Part shown: positions 15,725 to 23,833 of the stretch, piece by piece
Layout of the letters: each line of letters opens with the position of its first letter
Position numbering within the stretch: the stretch's first letter is position 1
Assembly (NCBI GenBank): GCA_014239685.1
Contig: JAAZYK010000005.1
Coordinates: forward strand, 1 to 37,016
Length of the DNA: 37,016 nucleotides
Direction: 5' to 3'
From: Dehalococcoidia bacterium
GTDB lineage: Bacteria; Chloroflexota; Dehalococcoidia; Lucifugimonadales; Lucifugimonadaceae
Program-made: the position numbers and the translations under genes
The notes under the pieces: model-generated
Database searches by the model: none
Seen by the model: only the letters and a program-made list of their open reading frames with translations
What the model was told of the DNA's origin: nothing

Positions 15725-16426
15725 ATGTCTCTCGATCAAGCTCCGCCGCCACTCAAGCCGCTCGACGCTCCCATCACGTTCATCGTCTGGTATGACTACA
15801 TATGACCCTGGTGCTACATCGGGCTGGCACGGCTCGACAAACTGGCTGACGAGTTCAACATCGAGTTCGATTACCGCGCGTTTATGCTCCATCCGGAGAT
15901 CCCGCCCGAGGGCAAGATTCGCGAGCCTCGACCTGGAGAGGGCAAGGGCGAGGGCGAGTTAAGCCCTCGTATCGCGGCGCTGGCTGAAGAAGAAGGCATC
16001 GTGATGCGGCGGGCAAATTTGACCCCGTACACGATCCATGCCCAGGCGGTTACCGAGTATGCGAAGGGATTCGGCAAGGCGGGGGAGTTCCACCACGCTG
16101 CTTACAAGGCGTTCTGGGAAGACGGCCTAAACCTGGGTGATTTTGACGTGCTGAAAGAGATCGCAATCGGCGTCGGTATCGACTGGGACGACATCCTTCC
16201 GAAGCTGGAATCTCGTGAGTACGACCGCCTGATTCAGGACCAGTTCGATGAGGCGATTCAGCTCGGCGTGACCGGAGTACCAGGTTTTTTGATAGACGAC
16301 CGATTATGGTTCACAGGTGCACAGCCTATGGAGATGTTTCGCCTGGCCGCCAAGAAGGCACTGGAGATCAGGAAACCAGAGAAGAACACTCGTCTGGGCA
16401 TCGGGATAGAGACGGCCGAGGAGTAA
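15725..16426 (+). CDS. Candidate selenoprotein: DsbA/FrnE-like thiol oxidoreductase with UPWC active site (in-frame UGA at 15803..15805 read as Sec)
   Basis: Same-frame translation from ATG 15725: MSLDQAPPPLKPLDAPITFIVWYDYI-[TGA]-PWCYIGLARLDKLADEFNIEFDYRAFMLHPEIPPEG... The TGA replaces the first Cys of the CPWCYIG active site. The cis-Pro region GVTGVPGFLIDDRLWFTGAQPMEMF is intact downstream. The ORF track only lists the post-UGA part from 15884. Confidence 0.8.
15819..15837 (+). promoter_or_regulatory. Candidate bacterial SECIS (bSECIS) hairpin in the coding sequence
   Basis: UCGGGC (15819-15824) pairs with GCUCGA (15832-15837), 6 bp with one G-U; 7-nt loop UGGCACG starting at +20 after the UGA with GG at +21/+22. 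Confidence 0.6.
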
Positions 16427-16664: not shown

Positions 16665-17867
16665 ATGCCAATTCATCCGCCGTTAGAAGGCGTCAGGATT
16701 CTTGCGATCTCACAATTCGGCGCAGGGCCGTTCGGCACGACCGTTTTGTCCGACATGGGCGCCGAGGTGATCAAAATCGAGGACCCGGGTGCCGGGGGTG
16801 ATATCGCCCGATACGTTCCGCCCTTCGCATCGGACCAAGACTCCCTGTATTTTCAGGCGTTCAATCGGGGCAAAAAGTCGGTGACCCTGAACCTTCGAAC
16901 CGAATCCGGCATGGCTGTGCTGCACGACCTCGTCAAGGCCTCAGATGGCGTCTACAACAACCTCCGCGGCGACTTACCTTCCAAGCTTGGACTCGACTAC
17001 GAAGCTCTTGGGAAGTTTAATCAGAAAGTTGTCTGCTGCTCACTTTCTGGTTTTGGTTCAACCGGGCCGCGGGTTTCGGAGCCAGGATACGATCATCTGA
17101 TCCAAGCATATGCGGGATACATGTCCATCACGGGCGAGCCAGACGCCCCGCCCGCCAAGTGCGGAGTCTCGATAATCGACTTCGCCGGCGGCTATGCTTC
17201 TGTTCTTGGCCTGATGATCGGGCTGTTTGACGCGCAGCGGACCGGCATCGGCCGCAACGTGGACGTCTCACTCCTCGACACCGGCATCGCAATGTTGTCG
17301 TACTTCGCCTCGTGGACACTGAATCGTGACTGGGAGCCCACCCGGCAAGCCGCGTCAAGCCATCAGTCACTGCTCCCGTCCCAGAACTTCCGCACACGAG
17401 ACGGCTGGATCGTCGTGTTCTGCGCAAAGGAGAAGTTCTACGAGAACCTTGTGGTGGCCATGGGACGGCCAGAACTCGCGACCGATCCTCGATTTTCGAA
17501 CTTCGCCGGGCGGCTTGAGAACCGTGATTTAATCATTCCGGAACTTGAGAAAGAGTTTGCAAAGCGAGACACGGCTGATTGGCTTCAACGACTCCGTGGC
17601 ACGGTACCGTGCGCACCCGTTAATTCGGTGTCAGAGGCCCTTCAGGACCAGCAGGTGCTGGCTCGCAAGTTGATACTGGAGGTGGAACATCCGGAGTACG
17701 GCACGATCCGTCAGGTTGGCTCGCCTATCAAAATGGACGGGGTGATCGAGCATCCGACCCCGGGACCTGCTCTCGGGCAGCACACGAACGAGGTGATGGC
17801 TGAGGTGCTTGGTTATTCCGACGAACGCGTATCATCGCTGCGTAAAGACGGCGCGTTCGGAAAGTAA
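16665..17867 (+). CDS. CaiB/BaiF family CoA-transferase
   Basis: PLEGVRILAISQFGAGPFGTTVLSDMGAEVIKIEDPGAGGDIARY, FNRGKKSVTLNL, GQHTNEVMAEVLGYS motifs. Confidence 0.95.
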   Translation: MPIHPPLEGVRILAISQFGAGPFGTTVLSDMGAEVIKIEDPGAGGDIARYVPPFASDQDSLYFQAFNRGKKSVTLNLRTESGMAVLHDLVKASDGVYNNLRGDLPSKLGLDYEALGKFNQKVVCCSLSGFGSTGPRVSEPGYDHLIQAYAGYMSITGEPDAPPAKCGVSIIDFAGGYASVLGLMIGLFDAQRTGIGRNVDVSLLDTGIAMLSYFASWTLNRDWEPTRQAASSHQSLLPSQNFRTRDGWIVVFCAKEKFYENLVVAMGRPELATDPRFSNFAGRLENRDLIIPELEKEFAKRDTADWLQRLRGTVPCAPVNSVSEALQDQQVLARKLILEVEHPEYGTIRQVGSPIKMDGVIEHPTPGPALGQHTNEVMAEVLGYSDERVSSLRKDGAFGK

Positions 17868-17974
17868 GTTTGACGCGCCGATTCAGCGAATATGGCATCA
17901 GATTTTGTACCCAGCAACGGCACGGTCGGATATCAACTATTACGGCTGAAAAGGAATCTTTATTGCGGATCCTG

Positions 17975-18256
17975 ATGACGGACGAAGCAAGAGATCATAT
18001 CCGTGATCTTGGTCGGCCTATCGCTCTGGACTATCTCGCCGCCATTGGCTGAGGTGGTCACGCAAAAGTGTCGGTAGACACCTACGCCCGGAAGATCAAT
18101 CTGAATTTATATGAACTGTTGCGACACCAGGGCGCCGAAATTCTGGTCGCCAAGAACCTTGTCTCTCAGGCAGTCGGTGTCACGCTAGAACTAAAGAAGT
18201 TCCTGATTTTCAAGTGGCTCAAAGTGGACGCTGCCTTGTATGGCCACTCCACTTGA
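17975..18256 (+). CDS. Candidate selenoprotein: HesB-like / CC-Se motif family protein (in-frame UGA at 18050..18052 read as Sec)
   Basis: ORFs 17870..18052 and 18068..18256 share one frame and are separated by a single TGA: MTDEARDHIRDLGRPIALDYLAAIG-[TGA]-GGHAKVSVDTYARKINLNLYELLRHQGAEILVAKNLVSQAVGVTLELKKFLIFKWLKVDAALYGHST. The joined ~93-aa product resembles the HesB-like CC/Se family end to end, with UGA at the conserved Cys/Sec-Gly-Gly motif. Confidence 0.72.
18068..18081 (+). promoter_or_regulatory. Candidate bSECIS hairpin in the HesB-like gene
   Basis: GUGUC (18068-18072) pairs perfectly with GACAC (18077-18081); loop GGUA with GG at +21/+22 after the UGA. Confidence 0.6.
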
Positions 18257-18270
18257 AACGCCAATCACTG

Positions 18271-18287
18271 AGCGACCGTGCGTCGCT
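18271..18287 (+). terminator. Hairpin AGCGAC-CGTGC-GTCGCT after the HesB-like gene
   Basis: Perfect 6-bp stem, 5-nt loop, 14 bp after the 18256 stop, between convergent genes; no strong T tract. Confidence 0.35.
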
Positions 18288-18404
18288 TGGAAATGGGGTT
18301 TGGAATACCTCCTCACAAGCGTCCTGAGGCTCGTTAACCACCGAGAGTCGACGAGATTGCCCCCTAGGACTACTTCCCCCCTTCAACGGCGATAACACGC
18401 TTGC

Positions 18405-19754
18405 CTACATCTTCTCCCTACCGGGAGAGCCAGCGAGCAACTCGTCGGACACCCTCACCGGCACAGACATAGGTTTCTCTAACTCCAACACCGACTCCGG
18501 CAACCGTTCGAGTTCCATACGCGCCAGATCGCGTGCCTGCCGGAGTGACAGCAAATCGCCGGTAACTGTCCCGTCACGCATCACTACGTTCAATAACTTC
18601 GTCGCATTGGGTTCCGGCGAATCCGCATCGGCGCTCGTCAGATGATCGTGGGCAACTATTCCATTTCTCGCATCGAAACATCGCCACACCTGCTTCGGGC
18701 CAGAAAACGTTGCCTTCCCGGGACTGAACTTGGCGACTGGACGGCCGTCGTACGTAACCTGTTTATAGGCGGCATCCGACCATGGTGCATCCGCCGACAC
18801 GCCCGCCAATGTCCCGACGCCATACGCGCCAATTGGCGCGCCACTCCTCGCCAGAGCCTCAATGGAAAATTCGTCCAACCCTCCGGAGGCCACGATCTGG
18901 ACGTAGCCAAGTGATGCGTCATCAAGCATCCGACGAGCGATCCGTGACAGGAAACCTATGTCTCCGCTATCGAGCCGTATTCCGGCCAGCCTACTGCCGC
19001 GTGTCTCCAGTTCATGTGCAACGGTGACCGCCGCTTCTATCCCATTGACCGTGTCGTATGTATCCACAAGCAAGGTTGCCGAATCCGGGAAGGCGTCTGC
19101 ATATGCCCTAAAGGCCTTGAGTTCGCTGTCAAAACTGGTAATGAACGAGTGCGCCATCGTGCCGATAGTCGATATCTCGTATCGGGCTCCGGCACCCACA
19201 TTGCTAGTGCCAACGAATCCGCCAATGTAGCTCGAGCGGGCGAACTTGTTTCCAGCGTCCGTGCCGTGTGTGCGGCGTGCGGCGAAGTCCGCGACACCTG
19301 CCCCGCCAGCAGCCTTCACCACGCGGGCCGCCTTCGTTGCGAAAAGCGATGCCATGTTCACCTGATTGATCAGGAACGTCTCGACGATCTGCCCCTCAAT
19401 AACCGGGGCGGTGACTTCTATCATCGGTTCGTTAGCAAAGAACGCCGTTCCCTCGTCCATCGCCCGTACGCTGCCGGTGAAGCGGAACTTGGCGAGATAC
19501 TCGATGAAGTCGTCACCGAACTGGCCGGTGCTCCGGAGATAGTCGAGATCGCCGAATGTGAATCTCAACTCTTCGAGATATTTAAGAACGTCCTCCAGCC
19601 CGGCGAATAACAGGAATCCACGATCAGGAGGTAGGTTACGCACAAATAAGCTGAACGTAGCCTCAGCGGTCTGACCGGAGCGCAAATAAGCCTGTCCCAT
19701 CGTGAGTTGATACAGGTCCACGTAAAGTGCGTGAGAAGGATCGAATCGAGTCAT
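18405..19754 (-). CDS. pncB: Nicotinate phosphoribosyltransferase
   Basis: LYVDLYQLTMGQAYLRSGQ, FSLFVRNLPPDRGFLLFAGLEDVL, LVDTYDTVNGIEAA, GIRLDSGDI, GVGTLAG motifs. Confidence 0.92.
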   Translation of the reverse strand: MTRFDPSHALYVDLYQLTMGQAYLRSGQTAEATFSLFVRNLPPDRGFLLFAGLEDVLKYLEELRFTFGDLDYLRSTGQFGDDFIEYLAKFRFTGSVRAMDEGTAFFANEPMIEVTAPVIEGQIVETFLINQVNMASLFATKAARVVKAAGGAGVADFAARRTHGTDAGNKFARSSYIGGFVGTSNVGAGARYEISTIGTMAHSFITSFDSELKAFRAYADAFPDSATLLVDTYDTVNGIEAAVTVAHELETRGSRLAGIRLDSGDIGFLSRIARRMLDDASLGYVQIVASGGLDEFSIEALARSGAPIGAYGVGTLAGVSADAPWSDAAYKQVTYDGRPVAKFSPGKATFSGPKQVWRCFDARNGIVAHDHLTSADADSPEPNATKLLNVVMRDGTVTGDLLSLRQARDLARMELERLPESVLELEKPMSVPVRVSDELLAGSPGREKM

Positions 19755-20022: not shown

Positions 20023-21195
20023 CTAGAACACATATTCCGGGCCAGGAACGTATTTGAAGCGTTCCAGCGCATCGTCCCGTAGTGTAAAGCCCAGTCCCGG
20101 AGCAGTTGGCGCGTACACGCGTCCGTCTGGTCGAACGTCGTAATCCTCGTTGAACAACTCGTTCATCATCGGCATATAACCCTGACTGACCTCAAGAATG
20201 TGACAATTCGGGGTCGACATCGCCACGTGAATGCTGGCAGCAAACAGCACCCCCATGCCCCACGCGTGTGGAGCCACCCGAACGCCTCGCGCCGACGCCA
20301 GAGCGCTGATGCGTCTGATTTCCGTGTATCCACCGGCGCGGGCGATGTCCGGCTGGGCTATATCACAGGCATGATTGTCAAACAGCGACTGAAAGTCGAA
20401 ACGCGTGAACTCGCGCTCACCAGTGGCGATCGGCGTCGTGGTCGCACGTCGAACATACCCGAGCCCGGCGTGATCATCCGGGGAGATCGGTTCCTCGAAC
20501 CATGCCACATCGTACTTCTCCATCATCTTCGCCAACTTGATAGCTGTGGAGACGGCAAATGCGCCATGGGCGTCCAGCATCAACTCCACATCGGGGCCGA
20601 TACCTCGACGTGCCGCAGCGATACGCGTTTCGGCGTTCTTGAACGAAAACCCATCACCGCCAACCACCCGCATTTTCACGGCGTCAAAGCCTTTGGCAGC
20701 ATATCCGGCCATCTCGGCCTCGGCCTCGTCGCCGGGCGCCCAACCGCCGCTGCCGTAGCCACGGACGTTGTCACGGACAGCGCCGAGCGCCTGGTAAATT
20801 GGCACACCGAGTATCTGAGCCTTTACATCCCACACGGCCAGATCGACACCAGAAATAGCCTCAACAGTTACGCCCCGGCGGCCGTCCTGCGGCTGCGAAT
20901 TACCGCGCTCAAGCGCGGGCTTCCATCGCGATCCGTTGTACATTTTTTCCCATATAAGTTCGGAAAACAGGGGGTTTTCTCCGAGCACCGACGGACCAAG
21001 ATCGAACTCTACCAAGGCCGCCACAACCTCCGGATTACCTAGCGAAGCGCCAAGCCCCTTAAGGCCGTCATCCGTCTCCACGACTATGAGCGTGGCATCA
21101 CTTTTTACCTTGGTGCCAAGGTCGTTCCTGTGCTGCCGATTAAGTGGCACCGGGTCGGACATCGGGATCGCCTTCACAGACGTGATCTTGGACAT
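20023..21195 (-). CDS. Mandelate racemase/muconate lactonizing enzyme family protein (enolase superfamily)
   Basis: DAVKMRVVGGD, ELMLDAHGAF, VAWFEEPISPDDHAG, IATGEREFTRFDF, CDIAQPDIARAGGYTEIRRISALA, VAPHAWG. ATG at 21195 (MSKITSVKAIPMSD) preferred over 21225. Confidence 0.92.
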   Translation of the reverse strand: MSKITSVKAIPMSDPVPLNRQHRNDLGTKVKSDATLIVVETDDGLKGLGASLGNPEVVAALVEFDLGPSVLGENPLFSELIWEKMYNGSRWKPALERGNSQPQDGRRGVTVEAISGVDLAVWDVKAQILGVPIYQALGAVRDNVRGYGSGGWAPGDEAEAEMAGYAAKGFDAVKMRVVGGDGFSFKNAETRIAAARRGIGPDVELMLDAHGAFAVSTAIKLAKMMEKYDVAWFEEPISPDDHAGLGYVRRATTTPIATGEREFTRFDFQSLFDNHACDIAQPDIARAGGYTEIRRISALASARGVRVAPHAWGMGVLFAASIHVAMSTPNCHILEVSQGYMPMMNELFNEDYDVRPDGRVYAPTAPGLGFTLRDDALERFKYVPGPEYVF

Positions 21196-21534
21196 AAAAC
21201 TCTTTCTAGGAGGCACTGTGTGCATTGTGATTGGTTGTGTGACCGCGCAATATAAAATTACCGTATTGCAACCCGCATCTGAATCCTATCCCTGAGAAGA
21301 GGACAGGCCGGACGACTAGATCCTATTCTCACGGCCAAGCGCTTCCGCGACCGTCTCACGGACCCAAGATTCGGGCCCAGCCAACCGTATCTTTGACGTG
21401 GTCGGGAAACTTGCCCAAAATGCCGGTCTGCAGCGCCACTTTATTGCCGGCCGCCATCGGACCGAATCTCAATTGGTTAGTCCCGTTTGCAAGCACGTCG
21501 CCTGGCTCCAGTCGCATTCAGGTATCCCCGATTT

Positions 21535-22617
21535 CTAACGCAGGGTCCGTTTGAACAGCCTGAGATTGTTTGTGCCAAGAATCTTAGTAACGGTGTTTTT
21601 GTCGTGGCCGCGATGCAGCAGGCCATCCGTCAGATAGGGCAAACGACTGATGTCGTCCATCCCGACTGGAACGGAGGAAACTCCGTCGTAGTCAGACCCG
21701 ATACCGACGTGGTCAACTCCCGCCAGCGTCACGGCCAGATCGAAGTGGTCCAGCAGCCTGTCCATGGGCGCGCCGGGCTTGCCGTCCGGTTGATGAATGC
21801 GCTCAAACTGATCCCTGAACAGTGACCGTTCTGGCTTGAGCATCGGCACAAATGGCGGATGATCTGGCCCACCGATGAAGGGTGAGGCGAAATTGATGTT
21901 CATAACGCCATCGGCCTGACCCAGCGCCACGATCATGTCATCAGTCATATTGCGTTTGGCGTCCTGCAATGAGCGGCAGGACGAGTGTGAGGCAAAAACC
22001 GGCCCGGCAGCGGTTTCTAGCACGTCGTAGAAGGCCCTGTCCGAGATGTGCGAAACATCGGGCAACATGCCAATTTGCCCCATCTCTTTAACGATGTCAC
22101 TACCAAGCTCCGTGAGTCCGCCATGCTGCTCGTCATTACAGGAGTCGCACCAAGATGTGGCGTACTGCCAGGTCAGCGTGATTGACCGAATACCGGCGCG
22201 GTGCAGCTCCCGCAGAACGGCAAGATCGCTGCAGATGGCGTTGCCGCCCTCAACGGTCAGGAGCACAGCGATCCGGCCCTCGTTATGGATACGCTCGACA
22301 TCGTTGCCCGTATAAGCGATCTCCAGAGTGTCGGCGTGTGCATCGACCGTCCGACGCATAAGGTCTATGCCCTGCATAACGTACTTTAGCGAACCGGGTT
22401 CGTCGTACACATCATCGTCCAACCAGATAGCGAATAGTGCTGCGCCAACGCCACCTTCGCGCAGGCGTGGAATGTCAACATGCCCGGCCTCAAGCCGCGC
22501 GCCAAAGTCAGGGTGACGCGCCATCAGGTGTGTGATGGTGTCGATGTGCGTATCGACGACCAGCGAGCGCCGATGGAGCTCGATTGCCGCGTCACTGATC
22601 GAGTTATTCGGGGTCAT
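21535..22617 (-). CDS. Membrane dipeptidase (peptidase family M19)
   Basis: LVVDTHIDTITHL, GGNAICSDLAVLRELHRAGIRSITLTW, GMLPDVSHISDRAFYDVL, PVFASHSSCRSL, HVGIGSDYDG motifs. Confidence 0.95.
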   Translation of the reverse strand: MTPNNSISDAAIELHRRSLVVDTHIDTITHLMARHPDFGARLEAGHVDIPRLREGGVGAALFAIWLDDDVYDEPGSLKYVMQGIDLMRRTVDAHADTLEIAYTGNDVERIHNEGRIAVLLTVEGGNAICSDLAVLRELHRAGIRSITLTWQYATSWCDSCNDEQHGGLTELGSDIVKEMGQIGMLPDVSHISDRAFYDVLETAAGPVFASHSSCRSLQDAKRNMTDDMIVALGQADGVMNINFASPFIGGPDHPPFVPMLKPERSLFRDQFERIHQPDGKPGAPMDRLLDHFDLAVTLAGVDHVGIGSDYDGVSSVPVGMDDISRLPYLTDGLLHRGHDKNTVTKILGTNNLRLFKRTLR

Positions 22618-22747
22618 TTAATTATCCGTCCCAGCGTCTTCAAACTGCCTCCTCCTAATGTGTACGGTGGTTAATCATGTCTCCCCAACTAGACCCACGC
22701 TCAGACGTCCTTTGAATTCCACGGAAGAAGGCTTCCAAATTCGCTTC

Positions 22748-23833
22748 TTACTCCACGATCGCCTTCTCCAGAGCGTCTTCGTCAAACTCCAGCCCGAGTC
22801 CAGGCCGGTCCGGGAGATGGATCATCCCGTCTTCCGGCATAATCGGCTCCTTGAACAGCCCTGCGATCAGTCCAAGGTCGCCCGAGAACTCGTCGGAGAA
22901 CTCGTGCGGGCGGATCGCATTGCCGACGGTCGAATAGGCGTGCAAAGAGGCTGCGCTGTTGATTCCGGCTACCGGACTGTGTGGCATGACCGGCTTGTTC
23001 CGAATCACCGCCATATCAAAGACCCGCTTAACCTCAGAAATCCCACCAACGTTCAATATGTCCGGCTGGAGAATGTCCGGATTCGCCTGATCAATCAGAT
23101 CACGGAAACGCCATCGAGACGTCTCTTGCTCTCCTGTAGAGATCGGAACATCCAACGCATCTACGACCTGCTTGAGGCCGGGCAAATCATACTGAGGAAG
23201 CGGCTCCTCAAAGTGAGAACATCCGAGATCTTGGAGTCGTTTGCCCTGCAATATGGCGGTAGAGACTGAGTACGCGTTGTTGGCGTCGAACCCCAGGGGG
23301 CAGTCGTCCGGCAACCATTCACGAGCCATCTTGAAGATCGCGAAATCGTTCTCGGGATTAGCGTCTTGCCGGTAGTCCCGCCAATCCATCCGTACCTTGA
23401 AGTAGCGGAATCCCTGCTCGTAGCCCCGCTGGACATCCCGAAGCATCTGTTCCGGCGTCTTCTTCCAGCCGTTGCCTTGGCTCCAATAGAGTGGAATTTC
23501 GTGACGGGCGGCGCCTCCCATCAAGGCGGAAAGCGGCATGCCGGCCGCCTTGCCCATGATGTCCCACAGTGCGATATCGATAGACCCGACAATCTGCGGG
23601 GGAAGCCGAGTGGCACGATCGCCGTTCCCGAGTGAAAGGGTCTCCCAGTGCCGGGTCGGTTGCAGGGCGCCTTCGCCGACCAGAAGAGGCTTGATCACGT
23701 CGTTCAGGTAGGCACGGGTTATAGCCACGGACCGGCCACCATCGGCGATTCCGGTCACCCCCTCGTCCGTAAATACGCGGACAAGCGTTCGGCCGGTGGT
23801 GAGCAGATTGACGGTGATATCAGTAATTTTCAT
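22748..23833 (-). CDS. Mandelate racemase/muconate lactonizing enzyme family protein (enolase superfamily), second copy
   Basis: YFKVRMDWR, LGFDANNAYSV, CSHFEEPLPQYDLPGLKQV, ISTGEQETSRWRFRDLI, DILQPDILNVGGISEVKRV, VMPHSP. Confidence 0.92.
   Translation of the reverse strand: MKITDITVNLLTTGRTLVRVFTDEGVTGIADGGRSVAITRAYLNDVIKPLLVGEGALQPTRHWETLSLGNGDRATRLPPQIVGSIDIALWDIMGKAAGMPLSALMGGAARHEIPLYWSQGNGWKKTPEQMLRDVQRGYEQGFRYFKVRMDWRDYRQDANPENDFAIFKMAREWLPDDCPLGFDANNAYSVSTAILQGKRLQDLGCSHFEEPLPQYDLPGLKQVVDALDVPISTGEQETSRWRFRDLIDQANPDILQPDILNVGGISEVKRVFDMAVIRNKPVMPHSPVAGINSAASLHAYSTVGNAIRPHEFSDEFSGDLGLIAGLFKEPIMPEDGMIHLPDRPGLGLEFDEDALEKAIVE

Follow-up and report, generated by a model that had tools for sequence, protein, structure and literature searches.

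The locus described here lies in a stretch of 37,016 nucleotides from a Dehalococcoidia bacterium (contig JAAZYK010000005.1, positions 1 to 37,016), which was analysed as a whole and is called the window below. Two open reading frames on its forward strand share one frame and are split by a single TGA (18050-18052), as the first-pass annotation had described. The frame then runs past another TGA (18254-18256) to a stop at 18269-18271, only five codons further on. Comparison with homologues makes it highly probable that the locus is a single gene (17963-18271) for a 102-aa selenoprotein of marine Chloroflexota, in which two UGAs are decoded as selenocysteine (Sec). The features of the locus are as follows:

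16665-17867, + strand: upstream neighbour, CoA-transferase family III
17950-17955, + strand: AAAGGA, 7 nt upstream of the start codon and probably the ribosome-binding site (sequence and alignment of homologue upstream regions)
17963-18271, + strand: whole gene for a predicted 102-aa selenoprotein (Sec30, Sec98) that starts at TTG and ends at TGA 18269-18271 (homologue starts, C-terminal extension, translation)
18050-18052, + strand: UGA codon 1, predicted Sec30, in IG-U-GGHAKVSVDTY (TGA in 79/79 homologues, Cys in the remote L057 and L058)
18068-18081, + strand: putative SECIS hairpin 1, GUGUC-GGUA-GACAC, loop from 20 nt past UGA 1 (covariation, synonymous constraint)
18254-18256, + strand: UGA codon 2, probable Sec98, in GHST-U-NANH-stop (TGA in 40/40 homologues with this C-terminus, Cys in five)
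18266-18271, + strand: conserved C-terminal His codon and real stop, TGA here, TAA or TAG in most relatives
18268-18290, + strand: putative SECIS hairpin 2, CUGAGCGAC-CGUGC-GUCGCUUGG, loop from 20 nt past UGA 2
18405-19754, - strand: downstream neighbour, nicotinate phosphoribosyltransferase (NAPRT)

The boundaries of the gene differ from those given in the first-pass annotation, which started a protein of about 93 aa at ATG 17975 and took TGA 18254-18256 as its stop. In homologues, the codon equivalent to TTG 17963 is ATG or TTG and is directly followed by conserved sequence; with AAAGGA 7 nt upstream, the alignment places the start codon at TTG 17963 and makes ATG 17975 internal. Since the gene contains two in-frame UGAs, and the second one lies close to the true stop and resembles a normal stop itself, standard annotation splits the gene and its conserved C-terminus is lost by pipelines, even by those that look for split open reading frames. 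The adjacency of the CoA-transferase and NAPRT genes to the selenoprotein gene recurs only within its own genus, and this neighbourhood gives no hint of function. No match to Rfam was found in the window. It should be stressed that the split layout is common: 62 TGAs of the window are preceded by at least 25 open codons and followed by at least 60, and the 38 nt downstream of UGA 1 fold no better than shuffled sequences (z = -0.04), so the layout alone is no evidence for recoding. The case exceeds chance because the same UGA is conserved in all 79 homologues.

These 79 are the distinct homologues from the loci that make up the Dehalococcoidia set, and each of them has TGA at the Sec30 residue, which lies in a Gly-Sec-Gly-Gly centre. 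Where Cys forms of this site are clear, they belong to remote relatives: two remote members of the phylum (L057, L058) have a CC pair, its second C aligned with Sec30, and a third (L059) has CU, encoded as C-TGA, with the U at this place. The gene was found in 31 of 76 genomes of the same family, 87 of 250 genomes of the same order and 27 of 396 sampled genomes of the class. Among named genomes, MAGs of Dehalococcoidia and Chloroflexi come closest, with protein identity of 73-93%; a search of viral contigs gave no relatives. In one family of the order, adjacent tandem copies of the gene occur (L070, L073, L074, L085, L087, L089). Every copy has UGA where Sec30 is expected; the second one reads SVST instead of SVDT and its hairpin is altered. 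At a further MAG locus (L056), the N-terminal third is no longer recognisable, but UGA 1, the hairpin and the tail are kept; the locus represents either a frameshift or a decaying copy. In another genome (G005; L029 and L054), FKWLKV has a TGA, the third in frame, in place of its conserved Trp codon, which may reflect a nonsense mutation, faulty assembly or recoding.

The machinery for Sec insertion is encoded in the same genome, the assembly of which is 79% complete. SelA, SelB (C268, 334.7 bits), a tRNA-Sec with anticodon UCA and SelD were all found. The SelD gene (L019, G000:C55:7765-8691) is a full-length match with one in-frame TGA, so SelD is itself likely a selenoprotein. In a SelB search of 40 relatives, all 13 carriers of the gene had SelB above the cut-off, and the 5 relatives without SelB above the cut-off were also without the gene.

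The hairpin that the first-pass annotation had pointed out downstream of UGA 1 is present as described (loop GGUA, 5 bp, spacing 20 nt, -8.8) and fits the published bSECIS rules (PMC13188914). Stem positions that coincide with third bases of codons change together: among the 79 sequences, the stem combines GTG with GAC in 41, GTA with GAT in 27 and is mixed in 2, which gives matched Val/Asp codon pairs in 68 of 70, a value equalled in 0 of 20,000 shuffles. On the tree, 7 changes were counted on each side and 8 changes of the joint state; in the sign test, 4 well-supported independent pairs changed the same way and 0 the other (p = 0.125). The outer pair is seen as G-C, G-U, A-U and C-G. Moreover, the Val codons of the hairpin use 1.3 effective codons, compared to 2.2-3.5 elsewhere, and codon diversity is lowest in the hairpin. 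The changes in this stem are compensatory and synonymous, and together with the conserved UGA and the complete Sec machinery they uphold the initial proposal of Sec at 18050-18052. SelB with Sec-tRNA would decode UGA 1 as Sec30 with the help of the hairpin at 18068-18081.

The second UGA is very probably also a Sec codon, Sec98. TGA stands at the same C-terminal place in 40 of the 79 homologues, followed by two to four residues and a second stop, and a His is found in this tail in 38 of the 40; in the window the C-terminus reads GHST-U-NANH-stop. In the remaining 39 homologues the stops are TAA (18), TAG (13) and TGA (8), and the conserved tail is absent except in L005, where it carries Cys. 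Altogether five homologues have a Cys codon at site 2, ending in GPACTH (L005), GPTCRH (L142), GLTCQH (L144), GPGCRH (L148) and RPTCAH (L150), and for L144 and L150 there are close relatives with UGA instead (APTUAH, APTUSH). This exchange of Sec and Cys, as read from the alignment, is the strongest single argument for Sec98.

UGA 2 would be decoded by SelB and Sec-tRNA via the hairpin at 18268-18290, most of which is 3' UTR although it overlaps with the true stop. Among homologues the loop is mostly CGUG[CAU] and begins some 20 nt downstream of UGA 2, and the hairpin extends over the real stop and past it; in the window the loop is CGUGC on a stem of 9 bp, at 20 nt, with -12.1 kcal/mol and z = -2.0. 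In the aligned stems 91.4% of cells are paired and 51 cells are changed on both sides. The covariation is 0.679, as against 0.063-0.135 with the partners slid, and 0 of 500 shuffles equal it; in this measure one row shifted by the aligner counts against the hairpin, and registration of the rows by the hairpin itself biases the value in its favour. The hairpin was also considered as an intrinsic terminator and rejected, as no T-run follows the stem.

The most serious competitor is a protein with one Sec. Here only UGA 1 would be recoded, translation would end normally at TGA 18254-18256, and the conserved hairpin downstream would have its role in mRNA stability or in termination. The proximity of UGA 2 to another stop, the lack of the tail in about half of the homologues and the listing of family NF041239 with one Sec (PMC13188914) speak for it. 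However, an ordinary stop would hardly be TGA in 40 of 40 cases while the next stop is mixed (TAA 21, TGA 13, TAG 6). The five homologues in which this tail carries a Cys codon have no comparably strong hairpin: the scan found none in three and weaker ones in two (scores 5 and 8), compared to 13-17 in six further UGA forms. The missing T-run argues against termination, and the loop xG[UG]xx with a spacing of about 20 nt matches the SECIS rules (PMC13188914). We therefore consider a single Sec unlikely.

Two other explanations concern recoding as such. Reading of UGA as a different amino acid, by Trp or Gly recoding or plain readthrough, would leave the frame open just as Sec insertion does, but UGA terminates 9 of the 29 long open reading frames of the window, tRNA-Sec, SelA, SelB and SelD are present, and relatives carry Cys at the aligned residue, which makes this explanation very improbable. 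Even less credit can be given to a pseudogene or a sequencing error, where the UGA would be a nonsense mutation of a gene in decay. Although stop-split reading frames look decayed and the genome with L056 has a damaged N-terminal half, the identical UGA occurs in 79 homologues of many genera with the flanking coding sequence intact; this conservation already refutes decay. To return to the selenoprotein with Sec30 and Sec98, comparison shows the conservation of both UGAs, both hairpins and the machinery, with Sec/Cys exchange clear at site 2 and remote at site 1, and from this we infer actual Sec insertion at both UGAs.

As for known families, the label "HesB-like CC/Se-motif" given at first is right in its second half. 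The CC/Se motif family (NF041239) was first predicted in Moorella thermoacetica. The joined product matches its profile at positions 6-90 (E = 1.3e-7), and with the corrected start the match extends to positions 1-90 (34.8 bits, E = 1.3e-8), thus spanning UGA 1; the score stays below the 40-bit cut-off of the profile, which a relative (G063) exceeds with 42.5 bits. The likeness comprises length, the N-terminal opening and homology over the whole profile, all 44 tested homologues match, and Sec30 of the window aligns with the second Cys in the CC of Cys-containing members. The window protein differs in having Gly29 in place of the first Cys of CC, and no Cys is found there in the 79 homologues. 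The family has been published with one Sec and CxxU (PMC13188914), whereas about half of this clade has a second, probable C-terminal Sec. A literature search of partial coverage found neither a report of the family from Dehalococcoidia nor one of a member with two Sec.

The HesB-like part of the label finds no support in the window protein, for which the HesB-like and IscA profiles (TIGR01911, PF01521, NF038090) gave no match; the HesB-like protein (TIGR01911) and the CC/Se motif family (NF041239, one Sec) are also listed separately (PMC13188914). Among the 44 homologues, weak matches were obtained for PF01521 (10, best 1.4e-4), NF038090 (7) and TIGR01911 (1). One profile alignment, itself weak with a probability of only 15.8%, matches Sec30 to the first cluster Cys of IscA, and the extended profile could not be aligned sensibly. 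HesB/IscA proteins have three cluster ligands, of which the last two form a C-terminal CGC; this CGC is absent, there is no Cys in the window protein, and its C-terminus reads HST-U-NANH. The profiles suggest at most a faint kinship to HesB/IscA. A search of PDB sequences with the window protein gave no match, and a structure model from six close sequences reached pLDDT 45. The UXX-star selenoproteins (NF041114, NF041211) have, by name, Sec near the C-terminus, from which a SECIS reaching past the stop would be expected for them too. They are different protein families, with suggested metal ligands (PMC13188914), and here the C-terminal Sec would be added to a protein that has an internal one.

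On a larger scale, the comparison makes it likely that small proteins with two decoded Sec form a family across the class, the second Sec being placed within 3-5 codons of the stop. In this proposal SECIS 2 would extend across the stop and into the 3' UTR, and Sec/Cys exchange would go with gain or loss of this hairpin. Any assignment of function is more tentative. Since 46 of the 79 homologues have no Cys beside Sec30 in a 97-residue stretch, a common mechanism based on a CxxU or UxxC disulfide is improbable. Sec30 and Sec98, beside the C-terminal His, could possibly form a joint site for a soft metal or metalloid, or a diselenide redox pair; the pattern HxHxx[U/C]xH-COOH of many members suggests, equally tentatively, that the flanking His residues contribute to such a site. 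At site 2, Sec forms and Cys forms differ by one hairpin outside the coding region, which offers a clean comparative case. It can be tested how far past the stop a bacterial SECIS may sit, and how many UGA-ending C-termini in Sec-using bacteria are really Sec tails.

Other parts of the window may be mentioned. A gene for a DsbA-like protein (PF01323) at 15725-16426 would have the active site U-P-W-C if its TGA at 15803-15805 encodes Sec, and the same TGA is found in L051, L052 and L055; this gene is probably the first selenoprotein candidate of the earlier annotation. Further downstream, at 20023-23833, a membrane dipeptidase gene (M19) lies between two genes of the enolase superfamily (MR_MLE).
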